From NCBI GenBank assembly GCA_013368315.1, contig JAACJM010000098.1:124001-188000 (forward strand): DNA of 64,000 nt, given 5' to 3'. This document shows, in pieces, positions 3,547-56,500 of this stretch; position 1 is the first letter of the stretch, and every line of letters begins with the position of its first letter. The notes under the pieces are model-generated. The model ran no database searches, had not been told where the DNA came from, and saw only the letters and a program-made list of their open reading frames with translations. A program made the position numbers and the translations under genes. The DNA is from Tetrapyrgos nigripes (lineage: Eukaryota; Basidiomycota; Agaricomycetes; Agaricales; Campanellaceae).

Positions 3547-5952
3547 TCAGTATTTCAACTGCTCAATAACTGCATCACTATTCAAAAATCCACACCTCTC
3601 CTTCAACTTCTGCGCCACCAACACCTTATTAGAACCTTTTCCTTCCAACTTCGACACTCCCGGATCAGACCCTCCAACGACATAAACACCCGCATCCATC
3701 ATCCCAACGTCGGGATGATAACTTCCTTCCCATCCCTTCAACGTAACCTTTCCCGGAATCGTAGGCAGCCCAACACTAGCAAACGTCGTCCAAGACCTCG
3801 ACACTTGCTCAAGCAAAGCGTAATCAGCCTCAGTGGGGTTGACTAGGCCCGTAGTGTTGTATGCGGTAAAACTAGCGTAGACGTAGGCTAGTTCGGAGGA
3901 GTGAATAACTCCAAGACCAGGGGAGCCTAGGCTTTCCAAGGAGGGCGTGAGGATGGTTTGGTTGAAGGAGTATAAGAAGACAGGTATGGCTCCGGTTTTA
4001 GGTCCACCCCGCCACTCAGGATGCTCGTCAGCGTCAGCGAGGTCTTGAGAGTATTTATCTGCCATAGCATGTCCGAATAAAAACGACGGGCAAACGAGTA
4101 GGATATCTCGAAACACTTGAGCAGTGCGGTAAAATTCTGCTGAGAGACCTGCTTCGGTATTAGCATTGAAATCTTCTACTGGGTATAACTCGAGAAGACG
4201 GCTGATAGTAGTTTGAGTAAGGTCGGGGTAGAATATGTGTAAAAACTCCTCCATAGTTGTATTGGCTGGCGTAAAAAGCGTCCCATCGTCCTCCGTCCAC
4301 CCAATAATAACCGGCATGCGAACAAATCGACCTTGACGGGTCAGTTCGGACGACGCTGACGGGAGGAAATCGCCATCTACGGTGGGTAAATAAACATCTC
4401 CATCGTTTTGGCTTGAAGTAGAGTCGTGTTGTTGAATAGTTATGTTGAGAAGCGTTCCCATAGGAAGATTTCGTAGACAGGCTAATGTTTTGCTGCCTTG
4501 TGGATTCCCAAAGGTGTCGCACCCGGTTAGGTTAGCGACGGCGTTGAAGGTGTTGAGAGTTAGGTTGCTGGTGGAAGTGGGTTCGAGGGCGGTGCTTAAT
4601 GTCATGATCACCTCCCTAAACTCCCTATATATCTAACTAGTCAGTGATCATTCCCGCTAGTTTCATAGTTCTTATTTGTATTGTTTCCATATTGATCGTA
4701 TTCATTTGTTAGGTACTTATACGTTGTATTTAGCTACTTGTTCCGTAGCAGAATCAACTCCATAGTTCCCCCCTAAGGTGCTAGGCCTTGTTCGAGCCTC
4801 TTTCCGTACTCTTGCCATGGCCCGGTCCCTTACACTTTCCATGATGGCACTGTGGAAAGGGGCACCTTTGGTTCTGCCGTAGGCGAGGATTTGGAGGGTG
4901 ACGCTGAGAGCTGTATTCATCATGGTCAGCGCGACATCTCAAGGGAAGAAAGTTAGGTCGAAGCAACTAGACGAAGTTCGGATTAATTGCGACAAGATGG
5001 GTGAAAGTTAAACGAAAAGATGATCCTTACCTCCCGACGACTGTCCAAAAATGGTGACTTTATCAGGGCTACCTCCAAAAGAACCAATGTTTTCCTACAG
5101 AGACTGTATTTCAGCATCTCTCTTCACGTGTACCTCAAGGCTCCTTGACTAACCTTGACCCATTCAAGAACTAACCTCTGATCCTTTAGACCAACGTTGA
5201 GGTCGTTGGTTTCCCTCAAAGCTTCAGAAAGCGCGAATCCAAAGACTATAATAATAGAGTAGATTAGAGCCCACTTCAGAAAAGATGTATGTATGGACTC
5301 ACTGTTTAAACGATAATTCATCGCGACGAAGATAACAGGAAGTCCATTCGCAACTGACTCCAAGATCAATGCGTCTGGTTCATTCGTCCTTCCGTTGATG
5401 TGCCCGTTGAATAATCCACCTTTCGAAAGAAAAGAAAAGAAAAAAAGAAGAAAGACCTCATGAACGCAATGCAGCGCATTAACATGAAAGTAGTACCGAA
5501 GTAAAGTACAAACCTCCATAAACCCACACAAAAACAGGCAACTCATCCTCTTCCTTCGTCCCCACAGGTCTAGCAACCTTCAACCTCAAACAATCCTCAC
5601 TCAAATCTCCTTCCGTCAGATTACTAAACCAAGGAAACCCAGGCACAGTCGTTTGAGGACATACAGGTCCTGGGACTGTTGCATTGTAAATTGTACCTGA
5701 GGGTAAATACGCAGGTTCGGGAGAAGCAAATCGACGAGAACCAGCGGTGGAGAGACCGTAGGGGATATTGAGGAATTTCTCTACACCAGGTGAAGAGGTG
5801 ATTCCGAGGTATGTGATGTTGTGCTTGATGTCGAAGACAATCGGGTTTGGAATTGGGCTAGCGAAAGCGGAGGGTAGTAGTGAGAAGCTCAGGAAGATGA
5901 AGAAGGTCGAAACCAACTTGAGGAGACTGAGACTGCCCAGTGGGAACGACAT
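3547..5952 (-). pseudogene. Type-B carboxylesterase/lipase interrupted by a 237-bp insertion
   Basis: Exons on the minus strand are 5952-5514, 5419-5303, 5245-5154, 5094-5031 and 4910-3547. The protein has a signal peptide (MSFPLGSLSLL start), the YGGG oxyanion-hole region, NYRLN, a GQSSG nucleophile elbow, an acid position in WTEDDGTLF and a catalytic His in GVIHSSEL. All match the intact paralogue at 47507-49673. In the last exon, right after the ATGGAAAG codons, 237 bp of foreign sequence (4598-4834) flanked by a repeated CTT breaks the frame with an in-frame stop. Downstream the frame is open to the normal ...EQLKY stop. Splicing at the GT and AG present at the insertion edges would remove 239 or 241 nt and shift the frame, so I call it a pseudogene. 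Either a truncated 5' product or use of another splice site is possible. It was probably a secreted esterase. Confidence 0.85.
4598..4834. mobile_element. 237-bp insertion in carboxylesterase exon, 3-bp duplication
   Basis: The two related esterase copies read continuously here (…ATGGAAAGCAC…), while this copy carries 237 extra bases between duplicated CTT trinucleotides (4595-4597 and 4835-4837, plus strand). Insertion plus duplication is 240 bp, a multiple of three. On the gene strand the insert starts TGTAAGG and ends ATT just before AAG, so it resembles an intron at both edges. It has no clear terminal inverted repeats and no other copy in this window. Confidence 0.65.
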
Positions 5953-21741: not shown

Positions 21742-22824
21742 TTACCCGGGCTGGGACCAAGAAAGATAGCTTGCGCCAAAAGTGGACGCGCGTGAAAAAA
21801 TTGGGTCGCACCTGAAACAGCTGTAATAAGCTAGCCTGCTAGCTAGAATATTAATCTGAGCCCATACCTCTTCGTCAACCCACTTGATCATGCGCTTGAG
21901 ACGCAAGAGCTGGAACAATTCCTCCACCATGTACATATTACCGTCATACTCGACAGAGCTGAATCTTCCAAGTTGCAAATGAACTACATAGTAGTAATAA
22001 CGTTCTTCAAGGACATTTAACAGCCGTTCAAATGCAGATTCTTCCCCTTCTCCATAGCAAGGCTCCAACGTGACACCAAGCAATCCCAATAGACAGTAAG
22101 CTCGATCTTCCTCTTTGGTTGTCTCCCTGTGAATAGCCCATGATATGCGCTCCACAATGCCGACTCGGGCCATGTAGCGGCCATATCCAAGTCGTAGTAC
22201 ATCCTCTCCTATACCAGTGATATGGCGCATAGAAGTACTGAGTGTCTCTCTATCTCCGCAATATTTCCATGTTGCATCGAAGAACTCCACGGAAGAAGGC
22301 GCCAGCAGCTCCTGTAATGTCCATCCTCGAGAGAACCAGCTGCTTTGAAGAGGCCCTGCGCCATAGTGGTAGTCGTAGAGATAGACATAACAGACCTCCG
22401 AATTTTTGTAGTAATCGAACATCGAGTTGATATCCTGTGATTGTTGGCCGTGGTCTCCCTTGTTGATGCAACAAGTATCGATCCAGATGTAAGCGTGATT
22501 ATGTTCCCGTGCTTCCGTGCAAGCAGCTACCATCTTCTCGAAGCCACTCTTGGAACTGAGGGATAACGAAGTGGTGAGACCAGATCGACATTGAACCATC
22601 TCCTCGTGTGAGATTTCCTGGCCTTCCTCCCAGCGATGGGAGAGGATAGCATAAGGAGGGACCAAGTCATCGGATGGGAATTCTATGAGTTTAATGGTGC
22701 GTGTGTCGAGAAGCCAGCGAGGTCGGGTCCGCTTAAGCTTTTGCAAGGGATCGAGTGAAGGTGTGCTCCTGAAACGAGTGGATAGCCAAGCGGCAAGACC
22801 AGATCGAGACTTGAGTTTAACCAT
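21742..22824 (-). CDS. HET-domain protein (heterokaryon-incompatibility-like)
   Basis: Single-exon frame of 360 aa. HET core motifs are in order: PPYAILSHRWEEGQEISHEEM, then YIWIDTCCINKGD, INSMFDYYKNSEVCYVYLYD, SSWFSRGWTLQELLAP, ERISWAIHRETTKEEDRAYCLLGLL. In filamentous fungi HET proteins mediate allorecognition and cell death after fusion of unlike hyphae. In mushrooms the family is large and most members are untested. No WD40, NACHT or ankyrin part follows. The N-terminal 20 or so residues (MVKLKSRSGLAAWL) look like a partial second copy of an internal segment (MVQCRSGLTTSL), so the original start may have been lost or replaced. Confidence 0.85.
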   Translation of the reverse strand: MVKLKSRSGLAAWLSTRFRSTPSLDPLQKLKRTRPRWLLDTRTIKLIEFPSDDLVPPYAILSHRWEEGQEISHEEMVQCRSGLTTSLSLSSKSGFEKMVAACTEAREHNHAYIWIDTCCINKGDHGQQSQDINSMFDYYKNSEVCYVYLYDYHYGAGPLQSSWFSRGWTLQELLAPSSVEFFDATWKYCGDRETLSTSMRHITGIGEDVLRLGYGRYMARVGIVERISWAIHRETTKEEDRAYCLLGLLGVTLEPCYGEGEESAFERLLNVLEERYYYYVVHLQLGRFSSVEYDGNMYMVEELFQLLRLKRMIKWVDEEVWAQINILASRLAYYSCFRCDPIFSRASTFGASYLSWSQPG

Positions 22825-47506: not shown

Positions 47507-49673
47507 ATGCCATTACCACTGGGCAGTCTCAGTCTGCTCAAGTCGGCTTCGACGTTCCTCATCTTCTTGAGTCTTTCCCTAGCACTGGTACCCTCTGTTT
47601 TCGCTGATCCAACTGTCATCGACACTAAGCACAACGTCACATTCCTCGGAATCACCTCTTCACCCGGTGTAGAGAAATTCCTCAACATCCCTTACGGCCT
47701 CTCCACCTCTGGATCTCGTCGTTTCGCTTCTCCCGAACCTGCGTATTTGCCCTCGGGTACAATCTACAACGCTACAGTCCCAGGACCCGTTTGTCCTCAA
47801 ACGATCGCGCCTGGGTTTCCTTGGTTTAGTAATTTGACGGAAGCGGATTTAAGTGAGGATTGTTTGAGGTTGAAGGTTGCTAGACCTGAGGGGGCGAAGG
47901 AGGGGGATGGGTTGCCTGTTTTTGTGTGGATCTATGGAGGTGTGTACTTCTGTCTTACTTTCATGTCACCGCGCTGCGTTGCGTTCATGAGGGCTGAGGA
48001 CTTTCTGACCTCTGACGTCTTTCTTCTTTTTTTTTCTTTTTCGAAAGGTGGATTATTCAACGGACACATCAACGAAAGGACGAATGAACCGGACGCGCTG
48101 ATCTTGCAGTCAGTCGCGAATGGACTTCCTGTTATCTTCGTAGCAATGAATTATCGTTTAAACAGTGAGTCCATACATAGCTCTTTTCTGAAGTGGGCTC
48201 TAATGTACTGTATTATTGTAGTCTTTGGATTCGCGCTTTCTGAAGCCTTGAGGGAAACCAACGACCTCAACGTCGGCCTGAAGGATCAGAGGTTAGCTCT
48301 TGAATGGGTCAAGGTTAGTCAAGAAGCTCTGAGGTACATGTGAAGAGAGATGCTGAAATACAGTCTATAGGAAAACATTGGTTCTTTTGGAGGCAACCCT
48401 GATAAAGTCACCATTTTTGGACAGTCATCAGGAGGTAAGGATCATCTTTTCGTTAAACTTTCACCCATGCTTCCCTCTCCAGCTGTCGCAATCAATCCGA
48501 ATTTCGTCTAGTTGCTTCGACCTAACTTTCTCCCCTTGAAATGTCGCGCTAACCATGATAAATACAGCTCTCAGCGTCACTCTCCAAATCCTCGCCTACG
48601 GTGGAACCAAAGGTGCCCCTTTCCACGGTGCCATCATGGAAAGCACCGCCCTCGAACCCACTTCCACCAGCAACCTGACCTTCGACACCTTCAACGCCGT
48701 TGCTAACCTCACCGGGTGCGACACCTTTGGGAATCCACAAGGCAGCAAAACATTAGCCTGTCTACGAAATCTTCCTATGGAAATGCTTCTCAACATAACT
48801 ATCCAACAACACGACTCTACTTCAAGCCAAAATGATGGAGATATTTATTTACCCACCGTAGATGGCGATTTCCTCCCGTCAGCGTCGTCCGAACTGACCC
48901 GTCAAGGTCGATTTGTTCGCATGCCAGTTATTATTGGGTGGACGGAGGAAGATGCGACGCTTTTTACGCCAGCCAATACGACTATGGAGGAGTTTTTACA
49001 CACATTCTACCCCGACCTTACTCAGACTACTATCAGCCGTCTTCTCGAGCTATACCCAGTAGAAGATTTCAATGCTAATACCGAAGCCGGTCTCTCAGCA
49101 GAATTTTACCGCACTGCTCAAGTGTTCCGGGATATCCTACTCGCCTGCCCGTCGTTCTTGTTTGGGCATGCTATGGCGGACAAGTTCGCTGAGGATCACC
49201 CTTACGAAGCCCCGGATGGTGGCGTTCCAGTGCCTCCAGTCTTCTTGTACTCCTTCAACCAAACCATCCTCACACCCTCCTTGGAAAGGGGAGGCCTCCC
49301 CGGTCTCGGAGTGATCCATACCTCTGAACTAGCCTACGTCTACGCTAATTTTGCCACATACAACAACACCGGCCTCGTCCACCCTACTTCGTCTGATTTC
49401 TCTTTACTAGAGCAAGTGTCGAGGTCTTGGTCGTCGTTTGCTACTACCGGGCGGCCTACGATAACAGGGAAGGATACTTTGCAGGGATGGAAAGGGAGTT
49501 ATCAGCCCGGTGCTGAGATGATGGATGCGAGTGTTTATGTCGTTGGAGGGTCTGATCCGGGAATGTCGACGTTGGAAGGAAAAGGCTCTAATAAGGCGCT
49601 GGCGGCGCAGAAGTTGAAGGAGAGATGTGAATTCTTGAATAGTGATGCAGTTATTGAGCAGTTGAAATACTGA
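47507..49673 (+). CDS. Secreted type-B carboxylesterase/lipase (intact paralogue)
   Basis: Exons 47507-47939, 48048-48164, 48222-48313, 48371-48434 and 48568-49673 give a predicted 603 aa. A signal peptide (MPLPLGSLSLLKSAS…) is followed by VIDTKHNVTFLGITSS. Alpha/beta-hydrolase motifs: YGGG oxyanion region, NYRLN, nucleophile S233 in GQSSG, acid position D364 in WTEEDATLF (Glu in many relatives) and H486 in GVIHTSEL. Many N-glycosylation sequons (NAT, NLT, NTT, NQT) fit a secreted enzyme. Basidiomycete relatives hydrolyse lipid, sterol or carotenoid esters, but the substrate here is not determinable. It is the only one of four esterase copies in the window without a disabling lesion. Confidence 0.92.
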
Positions 49674-50342: not shown

Positions 50343-53300
50343 TCAGTTGCCAGCAGCAGCATTCTCATCAGCATTCTCATCACCGTCACTCTCCAGAGCC
50401 TTCAAAACAACCTCCCGACGCAACCATTTTTCCTCCGGAGTGAACCACCAGCTGAGGACTCCAAAGATGGTGACAGCACCAAAGATGACGCATGCCTAAA
50501 ATCATAGTCATGATCATAGTCATAGTCAGTCAATCAAGACACACCGAAAGAGAAAAGGGCAAAGAAAAAACACTCACAAAATTAAAATTCTCCGCATCCA
50601 CCGGAAAGAAAAACGGTGAAACATCGACCGCAACAATCAGCGCATTGAACACCGCTGCGGATAAGTAGCACAACTTTGCCAACCATCTTCCACCTCCCCT
50701 TCGTCCACCTCCCCCTCTACCCGCTTCCCCTTCCCCACCCGTCCAACCAAACAAAGCCCTAACCATCCTCTTCCCCAACAACATCTTACTCCCCAAAAAC
50801 CTATCCGGCGTCATCACCAACCTCAACAGCGCAATCAACCCATACGCCGCAATCGTTGGTACCGCACCGGCCGAGACCAAGCTTGTAAAAGCTACGGTGC
50901 TAGGTAAAATCGTACATAACAGTATAGCACCGAATATGTATATGACAGTGACGGCATTTTGAGGTTGCCCGTTGGGTGTGACGGTGCCTATCCAGGAGGA
51001 CATGGGTAGGACGCCGTCTCGGGCAACAGCGAAAATGAGGCGGGAGGCGGCGACGATGGCGATGCTTGTGTTCTGCACCAAGTAGCAGAGAGCAACGTCA
51101 ACATTCTCGTCAACGTTTTCGTGAAACTGAGGAAACGGGTAAGAACTCACCAAAATTAACCCAATAACCGCAATAATCGTCATAAACACACTCGGTCCTT
51201 TACCCAACGCCATCGCATAAATTTGCACAAAAGGCTGAGGAGCTTCCAATGCAAACAACGTGTCGAGATCAGGGGTGCAGAACAGGAACAAAATCGTCGT
51301 GATGAAGCCAAGGACACCTGTGGCGATGGCGCTGGTGAGAATGCCTTTGCCTGCGACAATGCTGGGGGTGGGACACGAAAAGAAGAAGACAATCAGCGTC
51401 CAGAGTCAGACTAGGACGGTAGAGTACCTACCTAGCATTTTTAGTTTCTTCAGCAATATGTCCAGAAGCGTCAAAACCGGTCATTGTACCAGCAGTGAAG
51501 AGGCTAAATGCAATTAGACCAGGTGAGCGGAACGTCACCAAAACCATGGTGCACTGGAATCATACTCACAAGGACAAAATCCAATTCCAAGCCGGGGGAG
51601 CTCCAGTTCCATTATCTGCAAAAAAAAAAAAAGGAAAGAAAAAGGACACGTCAACGTCCAACATCCACCATCCACCATCTTGAGAAAGAGAAAAAAAAAA
51701 AAACCACTCACAAGTCCCAGTAAACACCTCCCCCGCACTCCTAAACCCATAAGTCCTACTCACCCCAATCGGTAACCAAATCACACATAAAAAGAAATCC
51801 AACATCATCAGTCCCACTGAGAACTTGAACACCATCGAATACCTGCGTTTCGAACATAAGTATGAGATATACATATACTTATACATAGCAAGATAAGAAA
51901 GACTTACCACTTCGGCGGCAACCGATTAATCAAAACCGAGAGGAGCAAGAGTGCTTCGGATACAGCCCAAATGAACGCACGCCATTTGACATTGGAAGAG
52001 GAGATGCCACCGGGGAAGGAGACGTCCCAGACGACGAGTTGGGAGACGATGTAGTTTGCTGTGGTCTAAACGTATAGCATAAAGGTAGCGTCAGTCAGTC
52101 AAAGTATTCGTCTCCCCAAAACTTTGGACAACACAGTGAGAAGAAGAAAAAAAAAGTACCACTCAAATGCAAAAAATCCAAAGTCAAAAACCAAAAACAC
52201 ACCTGACAATTACTAGCCGTAAACGTCATCCAAGCCGTACAACTCCACCAAGCGACCACGAATCCAAAGAATCTAGCGTACTTGGGTCCAGCGCTTTCAG
52301 CTGCCCAGATGTAAATCGAACCGCTGAGAGGCAAGGCAGAGCATATTTCAGCTAGGACGGCGGCAGTGATGGTCATGAAGATGATGGTGACGATGTAGGA
52401 CGACCTTTGAGGGGGGAAGAGATTAGCCAAGGGAAAGAAAGAAAGAAGGAAGGAGACAAAATGAAAAAAAAAAGAGAGAAGGAATGCGAGGAATAGAAAG
52501 AATGACATACCATATCGCAGCGGGACCACCGGAGAGTAAACCGAGGAAGAGAACGGATCTGTTAAGGAATAATAAAATCAGTAAACTGTTCCAAGTGAGT
52601 AACAACGAAGAAAGACTAACCTGACACCACCGATAAAGTTCAAAGCACAAAAACTCGCTGCAAAGCTTTCGACGAGGTGCCAGGTTCGATGCAATTGCTT
52701 TGAAAGTTGAAGGTTGAGGTTGTTTAGGTTGGTAAGATTGGCGAGGTGTATTCGTGCAAGGGACCAAGACAAGGAACAAATTCGAAAACATAGAGCAAGA
52801 ACCAGTCAGAACCCCAACTATTCGAATAGCACAGAAAAAACAACACACCTGTTTATAGCCTAATTTTTGCTACAAACACACACCCGTCAGTACACTGCTA
52901 CGGCCTCCCAAGGAGGCGAAAGAAAAGGGTAAAAAGACACTGGGGCATTCCCTACGCAGGTCTGAGCGCTGATCAGGTTCAAGCGGTATAATCTCAACCC
53001 TTGTGAATGGTCTTAGTCTCGGTCGGTCTCGGTGTCTATCGTCTTATCAACAATGAGAAATAGAACGAAAGAAAGGTCTCGACAACCTATTCCATTCCAT
53101 GGACCGCTTTAATAAGACAGACAGACACAACCATTGAGACGACAAGACCCATTCAGCAAGGATACCCGCAGCCCATTTCCAGTGATATTTACCACTAGGT
53201 GAGACGTTACCCGGATTCACGATATGGTATCAAGCAGCCCAGATCTCCGAAGGAAGTGTTCTTCCCATAGCCTTGTGTCCCTTGTAAATATGAGTGAATG

Positions 53301-53385
53301 TGAGTTGTTTTACCAGCTGGAGTTGATCTTGGTCTATCAGAGACGCGGCTTCCCGGTCGTCGTTGGACTTAGAGTCTGTCGACAT
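50343..53385 (-). CDS. APC-superfamily permease, Thi9-like thiamine transporter candidate
   Basis: Twelve exons: 53385-53314, 52869-52849, 52697-52621, 52558-52511, 52404-52203, 52065-51908, 51842-51712, 51615-51570, 51503-51432, 51361-51151, 51072-50578 and 50495-50343, predicted 561 aa. Hydrophobic helices follow the amino acid-choline transporter pattern, with CALNFIGG in TM1, ALPLSGSIYIWAAESAGPKYARFFGF around TM3, MTGFDASGHIAEETKNA in TM6-7 and IFAVARDGVLPMSSWIG after TM8. The closest fungal themes are Uga4 (GABA) and S. pombe Thi9 (thiamine). The first intron (444 nt) contains a TPP-riboswitch core, so thiamine or a precursor is the likely substrate. Exon 2 is only 21 nt. An in-frame ATG at 53436 is an alternative start. 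If intron 1 is retained, the frame ends after about 20 more codons. Confidence 0.88.
52941..53020 (-). promoter_or_regulatory. TPP (thiamine pyrophosphate) riboswitch core in intron 1
   Basis: On the minus strand, in order: TTGAGATTATACCG (the UGAGA pyrimidine-sensing motif and following bulge), GAACCTGATC (P4) and GCGTAGGGAA (P5/J2-4 pyrophosphate arm), with a short CAG…CTG stem in between. These match the widely conserved thi-box sequence. The 5' half (P1/P2 strand GGGGUGC-like) is not obvious nearby. Candidates are near 53,185-53,215, which would imply a long P3 arm, as is frequent in fungi. It sits in the 444-nt first intron of the permease, sense orientation, about 80 nt before the 21-nt exon. 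Eukaryotic TPP riboswitches usually control alternative splicing. Confidence 0.88.
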
Positions 53386-53567: not shown

Positions 53568-56500
53568 TCACTGAACGCCGAATCGCTGAGAACAGATGGA
53601 TGTGAGTGAAAGAAAGCCATGTAAAGACGTTATTCTACGTACAGGTTTAAGTGCCTTGATGAGTAGCCATTCCTCATTAGAAACATCCGCTTTGAAGGAG
53701 GCCTAGATTGAAGAAAAACGTGAGTCGGGACTGCATCGAACTTCAAAGAAAGACGGAGAATAAAGTATGTACCTTCAAAACGTCAATGCTCTGTCGGGTG
53801 ATGTGACTGAGCAGTTCATCCTTCTCATCAAAATGACGTCCAAACATCTTCGCTGATTGATATACAGCATGCTCTATCTTAACGGCAACACCACCTCCCG
53901 CTTGGGATTTTTTCACAACCTGAATTGTCAGATGCAAACGTCAGTGAACCAAGACTAGGGTAAGAGTCAACAAAACTGGGAATGGACTTACATCGTATGC
54001 CTTGTGATTAATCTCGAGAGATGTCCTGTGAAGAGAAGAGAGAGGGGTCAACTTGTTGCCGGGACACGCCTGATTCGCAAGGCGACGACATACACTTTTC
54101 CGAGATCGATAATTTCCTTCTTTTGAGTGGTGGGGTCTATTTTGACGACGGCGAGGGGCGTTCCTACTCGTAGCGATCCATCAAGGATATCGACACCCAA
54201 TATGATGGGATCTCGTTTACAGAAGGCGGCGATTATCTTCAGTCTACAAGGCCAGACAGCTTGAGGTGCAGCATCCCTTCGTTTCGCCTCTGTAATTTCT
54301 TGGTTGTAAGCGGTGAACTTGTCGAATAGGTGATAGATAATGTCAGCTAAGAGAGATAGAGATGAGATGACTGTGACGGCCAACGAACAGGCATCACTCA
54401 CCCTTGAACAACCTGATACCCATTTCCTCTGCCAGGCGCTCCCCATCCTTGTCTACCGGGACATCGAAGCAAAGTATACAAGCCAATTCCTTCGCCTTCT
54501 CCAACATAGTACCTGCACGCATAACGTCCCTCTTGTGAACAGGACCAATGTTGATACCGGACACTGGAATCTTGCTGGATTTCAAGAAATCGAGTAAAGC
54601 TTCCAATGAACCCAAGGTAGAAGCTTGCACACAGACACCCCTGCCAGACTTATCGATGCTGTTCAACAACGAAGTCAAATCCGACATGACTTCCTCCTTC
54701 ATATCATCCTCGTCGTCATCCGGACCAACGACGAGCAACCGTGAACCAGCGATAGCCTTATCGAGATCAGGAGCAGTAATTTTGACTCCCAACGCAGCTT
54801 TCACTTCCTTGTGGTGGACATACGCAGACTGAAACGCAGTCAGCATGTTGGTCGGTTAAAAAGGGGCTAATTAGCTTACCTTGATACGGAGCTCACGCAG
54901 AGGTTGAGGAGTGAGAAGGGCTCGGACCTGGGTGACAATAGGGCCATTCAAACCGCAAACCACAATCTTGTCTCCTTCCCGCAAGATACCATTCGACAAC
55001 ACGACGTCGATGGTCGTCCCCAGACCTTCAATGACCTTGACCTCCAGAACCGTACATTCAAGTTCAGAGAGGTACATCAACCGGTCACTCATCCTCTGCT
55101 GCGTCAGGTTGACCAGAAGCATGATCATGTCGGGTACACCTTCTCCTGTAATCGCAGAGGTGGGCACTAGCGATACGTTCCGAGCAAAGTTTTTGTTTTC
55201 ATAGTACAACACTGCATTCAAACCTTCTTCAGCGAATGCGAGGATGGTCTTGGATACTCGGTCTTCAAACTCCCGTTGGACTGCTCGAGTTTGCTTCGCT
55301 AGCGACTCTCGGAAAGCGCCATCCGGTGTAGGTTGCCAGCCGTACATACGATCAATCTGAGGCATCATCCTTCTCAGTTTGACTGCCTGGAAATTAATTA
55401 CCGGAGACTAATCACCTTGTTCAACGCCACAATAAAGGGCGTTTTACGATCACGTAGAAGACGAAGGGATTCCAGTGTTTGTGCTTCAAGACCGTGCTAG
55501 TTGGCCGTTAGTTCATGCCTGACGGTTTGAGTAGAAGACCATACCATAATGTCGACGACCAGGATCGCGATATTACACAATGAACTTCCACGAGAACGCA
55601 GGTTGGTGAAGGATTCGTGCCCGGGTGTATCGATGATGAGCAACCCAGGAATCTTATACTCTTGAGATCCATCCTAGTATACCGTGCCCATGATGAGCGA
55701 CATCGTGCCCCAACGAAAGCCTAGAACAGATCTTACCTTGTTCATGACCGCAGTCTTGGTCTGGATTGCCTCCACCGGGAAGTAGGTAGCACCAATCTGT
55801 TGAGTGATACCACCAGCTTCTCCTTCTTGGACGTTGGTTTGACGAATCTGGGGGAATCCAAGTCAGTAAATTGATCTGGACATGAGAGATATAGAGGAAA
55901 GATCACCTTGTCCAATAGCTTTGTCTTACCAGTATCGACGTGTCCAAGAATACAACAAATAGGACTACGAAGATTATCCTTGCTGCGGGCAGCAAGGGCA
56001 GCTTCATGCACTTTGGCTCGTCGTTCAGCAGCTTCAGCTTTCCTCTGAGCTGCCATCTGCTGAGCTTTGGACATTTCTTCATCGGAAGACTCTTCGTCTG
56101 AATCTTCCTCTGAAGAGTCTTCTTCCGAGTCCTCGTCAGAGTCCTCGTCTGACTCTTCTTCAGACTCAGATTCTTCCTTCGCAGCGGCGGGTTTGGATGG
56201 AGCAGGTGTAGGTTTCGATGAAGGAGCAGGTGTGGATTTTGATGGTGCAGGTTTGCCGTTTGTTTTGGCCGGCGTAGCTGTCGATGAAGCAGCAGATTTT
56301 GCGTCTGACGCACACAGTCAGTTAGAAAGACGGAAACAATCGTTAGTTTGAACATACCTTTTGCTGGTGCTTCCTTCTTTGCAGGTGTCCCTTCCTCATC
56401 ACTGGAAGCGTCCCAAGAGTCCTTGACTCCTTCAGCTGGTTTAGAGTCTTCCTCCTCGCTGCTAGCATCCCAGTCGTCCTTTTCTGCACTGTTGGCTGGC

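Follow-up and report, generated by a model that had tools for sequence, protein, structure and literature searches.

TPP riboswitches in amino-acid transporter genes are widespread in Basidiomycota (PMC5882874), and amino-acid permeases, as the group TPPsw-AA, are the main riboswitch group of this phylum according to PMC11683625. The members of TPPsw-AA are described in the latter source as being without 5'-RUAAUR-3' in L5. In the same source, the mean P3 length among fungal sequences is put at about 150 nt, and RF00059 is said to fail frequently where P3 is long. Basidiomycete Thi9 orthologues contain riboswitches as well, as stated in PMC5997356, which cites Moldovan et al. Several arrangements have been published for such elements. 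In Type III, an aptamer, an alternative donor, and a stop are found in an internal intron of 200 to 400 nt, and the account in PMC5882874 presents this type with no experimental observation. In Type II, as in N. crassa NCU01977 (Li and Breaker 2013, as given in PMC5882874), the 3' part of the aptamer pairs with the segment between the donors in the absence of TPP, and short P1' pairing is reported in that source for urea-type transporters alone. For N. crassa NMT1, TPP binding has been modelled as taking place during transcription (PMC7404189). A TPP riboswitch in an intron of the Gloeophyllum trabeum eIF5B gene was presented as an unusual exception in PMC5882874, which also places TPP riboswitches in eIF5B 3' UTRs of Postia placenta.

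We analysed a 64,000-nt stretch of Tetrapyrgos nigripes DNA (the window), in which a sequence-only reading had proposed a TPP riboswitch in the first coding intron of a permease gene. The predicted permease matched AA_permease_2 (PF13520; Pfam, E = 1.5e-44) and the amino acid permease family TIGR00907 (NCBIfam, E = 2.1e-63), the latter with 214.9 bits and thus below its cut-off of 598.3, in agreement with the broad family that had been assigned to it. A PDB search with the permease sequence (E 0.001) found no relative. The S. pombe thiamine permease Thi9 is described as a relative of amino acid transporters, and the likeness drawn here to Thi9 is one of broad family only. The element itself is a further example of the published group TPPsw-AA and not a new class. 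Like the members of that group (PMC11683625; the amino-acid transporter class of PMC5882874), it resides in an amino-acid permease gene, lacks RUAAUR in L5, is poorly captured by RF00059, and has a long P3 (167 nt, compared with the published fungal mean of about 150 nt). No difference from the group was found, but the long anti-aptamer helix predicted here is not described for it in the available parts of these sources. The features of the locus are collected in Table 1.

Table 1. Features of the permease locus and its riboswitch, in positions of the window
Feature	Positions	Strand	Remarks
Permease gene, AA_permease_2 / amino acid permease type	50343..53385	-	12 exons, 561 aa, stop codon included; GT..AG junctions, one open frame
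Exon 2, QKLGYKQ	52849..52869	-	21 nt, in frame; LGYKQ/LSYKQ/LGYRP motif in five paralogues
Intron 1, carrying the aptamer	52870..53313	-	444 nt
Full TPP aptamer	52938..53184	-	247 nt; RF00059 over the 3' part, P1-P5 placed, strand test
P4-P5 arm with GCG pyrophosphate motif	52951..52977	-	L5 = CGCUCAGAC, without RUAAUR
UGAGAU, pyrimidine-binding junction	52991..52996	-	RF00059 alignment and helix placement
Extended P3 stem-loop	52997..53163	-	167 nt; pair probability 0.96-0.995 in four contexts
P2 5' strand, GCGG-G-U	53164..53169	-	Partner A-UA-CCGC, 52989-52983
P1 5' strand, CACUG..GGGC	53171..53184	-	Partner 52946-52938; CACUG/CAGUG and GGGC/GCCC; inner four pairs tested
Candidate alternative donor S2, GUAAAU	53187..53192	-	Directly 5' of P1, past the in-frame stop; PWM score 5.6
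Predicted anti-aptamer strand	53229..53280	-	Predicted partner 52973-52928 without ligand; 36 bp, interrupted
In-frame stop TGA	53230..53232	-	Encountered if intron 1 is kept or S2 is used; 51-residue read-through
Donor S1, GUAAAA	53308..53313	-	Without the +5 G and +6 U seen in all 10 other donors of the gene
Exon 1	53314..53385	-	24 codons; start ATG at 53385; N-terminus compared by eye with five intron-less paralogues
eIF5B gene, 3' part (introns included)	53568..55407	-	Stop codon 53570-53568; gene continues further upstream

The sequence-only reading had put intron 1 inside the coding sequence, after 24 codons, with a 21-nt in-frame exon next to it. Both placements are borne out by the exon chain, and the first also by paralogues. 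In the same genome, TIGR00907 had at least 41 matches on ten contigs, the window's own (C95) included, and five loci whose match started at profile position 1 to 4 were examined. In each of the five, a single frame without a stop leads from an ATG past the LGYKQ-type motif (e.g., DDQDVLARLGYKQELRRDF in L052); to obtain IDQDQLQLQKLGYKQQLHRTW from the window permease, exons 1, 2, and 3 have to be joined. The intron-free N-terminal segment in the five paralogues therefore indicates that intron 1 lies within the coding sequence. By sequence comparison, introns 1 and 2 of the window permease break a segment that is continuous in the five examined paralogues. There was no TPP match at these five loci, where the only match was a sub-threshold one to a snoRNA. 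On contig C389 (22697-30756), the TIGR00907 matches repeat, as if two permease copies were situated side by side.

On the minus strand, intron 1 contains three conserved TPP-aptamer words in the proposed order. RF00059 matched positions 52932-53012 of this strand (model positions 1-105). The match, which the sequence-only reading had suggested as a check, was significant (E = 9.4e-4 for 2.5 kb against 4,227 families and 0.0087 for RF00059 alone genome-wide), but its 31.9 bits remained under the curated gathering cut-off of 54.3. The RF00059 model passes over the 167-nt P3 stem, and an Rfam scan of the whole window at the gathering cut-off gave 0 matches. The closing strands of P1 and P2, which had been suggested as a further check, are present in the 5' half of the intron. 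In a strand test of sixteen pairs (four of inner P1, five of P2, and seven of proximal P3), 16/16 pairs formed, while none of 5,000 dinucleotide shuffles of the upstream intron reached 16 and a single one reached 15. Among 822 control stretches of 310 nt from both strands of the window, 16 pairs were found in two, both overlapping the aptamer, and 15 pairs in two more, both within the eIF5B gene. All 28 listed P1-P5 pairs are standard, with CCUG/UAGG as P4 and CAG/CUG as P5, and folding of the aptamer region gives -96.5 kcal/mol (z = -5.18).

Two core patterns of the aptamer were found at a single place in the 98.46-Mb genome, with 0 matches for the reversed control patterns, and no second copy of the 537-nt stretch 52849..53385 was found. 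The genome-wide RF00059 search scored 49 of 3,850 first-look candidates, with further divergent copies possible. Relatives were not found in viral and prokaryote contigs. The low Rfam score, one inserted base in P5-L5 relative to the RF00059 consensus, and the L5 without RUAAUR could be read as signs of a decayed aptamer that has lost TPP binding. However, UGAGAU, GCG, and helices P1-P5 are all present, and the entire AA group is reported to have lost RUAAUR (PMC11683625); we regard decay as very improbable. On its sequence, intron 1 almost certainly holds a complete TPP riboswitch aptamer.

The donor of this intron is weak. S1 had a PWM score of 3.1, compared with leave-one-out scores of 6.0 to 11.3 for the ten other donors. 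In addition to S2, four intron GU sites score above S1: one inside P3 at 53128 (4.5) and, no more than 14 nt from the 3' splice site, three at 52883 (8.2), 52881 (5.2), and 52877 (4.3). By their exon coordinates, the other ten introns of the gene are 62 to 151 nt long. Retention of intron 1 adds 27 intron codons before the stop, for a peptide of 51 residues in total; the stop expected by the sequence-only reading is thus present, but 27 codons into the intron and not about 21. Near-complete pairing between the 3' splice site of intron 1 and exon 2 (52876-52852, minus strand; UUUGUAGC with GCUAUAAA) is predicted in both states, which could make intron 1 splicing inefficient by default. Taken on the sequence, the riboswitch probably turns a thiamine-related permease off by splicing, and we hold the joint claim, a TPP aptamer together with a permease turned off by splicing, to be probable to the same degree.

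The splicing change could be one of simple intron retention, with TPP blocking S1 or slowing splicing and the retained RNA being lost to nonsense-mediated decay. The stop after 27 intron codons and the weak S1 are in line with this, and control at the first donor has been suggested for C. parapsilosis DUR31 (PMC5997356). However, the accessibility of S1 was predicted to be the same in the free fold (0.62) and in the aptamer-constrained fold (0.63), and we consider simple retention somewhat unlikely. We give similarly low credence to the published Type III scheme, in which P4-P5 or P1 masks a donor locally, no long-range helix is involved, and TPP thereby moves splicing from S1 to S2. As in Type III (PMC5882874), the aptamer here lies in an internal intron of a transporter gene with two donors, S2 being a candidate, and an in-frame stop between them; S2 is where the published model puts it, past the stop and just 5' of P1, and in the free fold it is paired with the P1 5' strand. 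In contrast to Type III, the intron is 444 nt long, outside the stated 200 to 400 nt, and the predicted folds leave S2 masked on ligand binding. The accessibility of S2 drops from 0.47 in the free fold to 0.26 in the aptamer-constrained fold, owing to pairing of GGUAAA with UUUACC immediately 3' of P1; this P1 extension would mask the donor that the scheme brings into use. The authors of the C. parapsilosis DUR31 study, moreover, found little evidence of regulation at the second donor (PMC5997356).

Pairings that could mask a donor locally were compared with shuffled sequences. Masking of the S1 or S2 region by P4-P5 alone was rejected, with 272/400 and 369/400 shuffles as good, respectively, which argues against Type III masking and also means that the P4-P5 complementarity to the 5' splice-site region of NMT1-type masking is absent here. 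Two weak leads in favor of local masking emerged. The S1 region paired with the whole core strand at -21.5 kcal/mol (30/400 shuffles as good), and the extended P1' strand paired with the S2 region at -14.2 kcal/mol (26/400); when the S2 region was set against the whole core strand, 211/400 shuffles were as good. The S1 complement UUUUACC 3' of P1 (7 bp) was dropped, since 34/300 shuffles had one as long with strict pairs and 259/300 with wobble pairs, as was the S2 complement AUAUUUAC (8 bp; 8/300 with strict pairs and 158/300 with wobble). An 8-nt upstream repeat of the P1-P2 5' strand, UGGGCUGC, was rejected as an alpha-like element (90/2,000 shuffles); for its duplex, 219/500 shuffles were as good with P1' alone and 36/500 with the core strand. 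The sequence-only reading had further proposed that CTGATAGACCAAG in exon 1 pairs with P4. This proposal failed, as 226/400 shuffles were as good or better with P4-P5, 172/400 with the core strand, and 313/400 with the third aptamer part.

A different pairing emerged from folding. In the free ensemble of four transcript contexts, the P4-P5-P1' strand paired with 53272-53229, mostly with pair probabilities of 0.5 to 1.0. P2 (0.75 to 0.78) and P3 (0.96 to 0.995) persisted in this ensemble, while P1, P4, and P5 were at 0.0. The duplex of the S1-S2 intron part with the P4-P5-P1' strand had an energy of -37.4 kcal/mol, and one as good was found in 5/1,000 shuffles of the intron part, 15/1,000 shuffles of the aptamer part, and 16/1,048 other stretches of the window, figures that apply to a pairing picked out after folding. 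With a longer aptamer strand the result was weaker (17 and 34 of 1,000 shuffles and 55/1,048 stretches as good). The best aptamer-competent fold of 52845-53385 was 13.3 kcal/mol weaker than the free fold, and TPP would therefore have to act during transcription. Cotranscriptional TPP binding as modelled for N. crassa NMT1 (PMC7404189) would answer this objection.

On the basis of these predicted folds, a switch can be proposed. When TPP is low, the P4-P5-P1' strand of the aptamer would pair with the intron segment 53280-53229, so that S1 and the 3' splice site would be separated by about 91 to 107 nt instead of 444 nt, within the range of the other introns; the P1 5' strand would pair with S2, S1 would be used, and the full permease would be made. 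At high TPP, closure of the aptamer would free 53280-53229, and the path would measure about 76 nt from S2 and about 197 nt from S1, which is a poor donor. Either S2 would then be used or intron 1 would be kept, and both outcomes would lead to the 51-residue dead-end peptide. Pairing of 53280-53229 with the P4-P5-P1' strand may thus be the switch, a possibility that we advance tentatively from the folding models, and by the same models it appears, again tentatively, to be better supported than the pairing of exon 1 with P4. In its predicted TPP-free state, in which the 3' part of the aptamer is bound to a segment between S1 and S2, the element would resemble Type II of N. crassa NCU01977 (Li and Breaker 2013, via PMC5882874). 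However, the segment here pairs with P4-P5 as well as with P1', the host gene is outside the urea-transporter family, and there was no match to the alpha consensus RGCGGYRRY between S1 and S2 (53313-53193).

The gene upstream of the permease was identified as eIF5B by PDB matches to eIF5B (9.1e-71 and 3.6e-49) and by the NCBIfam family IF-2 (1.6e-33, below its cut-off). The two genes are arranged head to tail, and eIF5B ends 182 nt before the permease ATG. Elsewhere in the window, reading frames of the carboxylesterase family (PF00135) are found at 3550-4611 (minus strand) and 47507-49670 (plus strand), and one with a HET (heterokaryon incompatibility) domain at 21745-22824 (minus strand, 7e-14). 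The closeness of the two genes, together with the TPP riboswitches placed in an intron and in 3' UTRs of eIF5B genes (PMC5882874), would fit an element that regulates eIF5B from the 3' end of that gene, the arrangement put forward for G. trabeum and P. placenta. We judge this extremely improbable here: the aptamer is enclosed by the GT and AG of a clean intron in the permease gene, the exons on either side of that intron resemble the N-termini of the paralogues, and the aptamer starts about 380 nt beyond the eIF5B stop. By analogy with the neighborhood at this locus, the published eIF5B riboswitches may instead be those of a downstream permease. PMC5882874 was the only paper found in a literature search combining riboswitch, initiation factor 5B, and thiamin. 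It would be a bolder, and in our estimate rather unlikely, claim that this TPP riboswitch of the AA-permease group both uses a long-range 36-bp (interrupted) anti-aptamer helix, rather than the short P1' pairing, and lies within a conserved eIF5B-permease pair that explains the riboswitches published as those of eIF5B.

Thiamine metabolism was examined in the same genome. A THI4 match was found on contig C13 (757787-758689), with no Rfam match within the 3-kb THI4 locus, and a protein-level search, in which an empty answer is no proof and introns can hide a gene, gave no match to NMT1/THI5. A THI4 locus without an Rfam match and the absence of an NMT1/THI5 match are compatible with an organism that relies on the import of thiamine or of its pyrimidine. 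For the AA-permease group, this copy offers a complete, testable anatomy, with a full aptamer, a weak donor, a stop, an alternative donor, and a predicted competing helix, and the eIF5B-permease pair offers a simple reading of the published puzzle of the eIF5B riboswitches.
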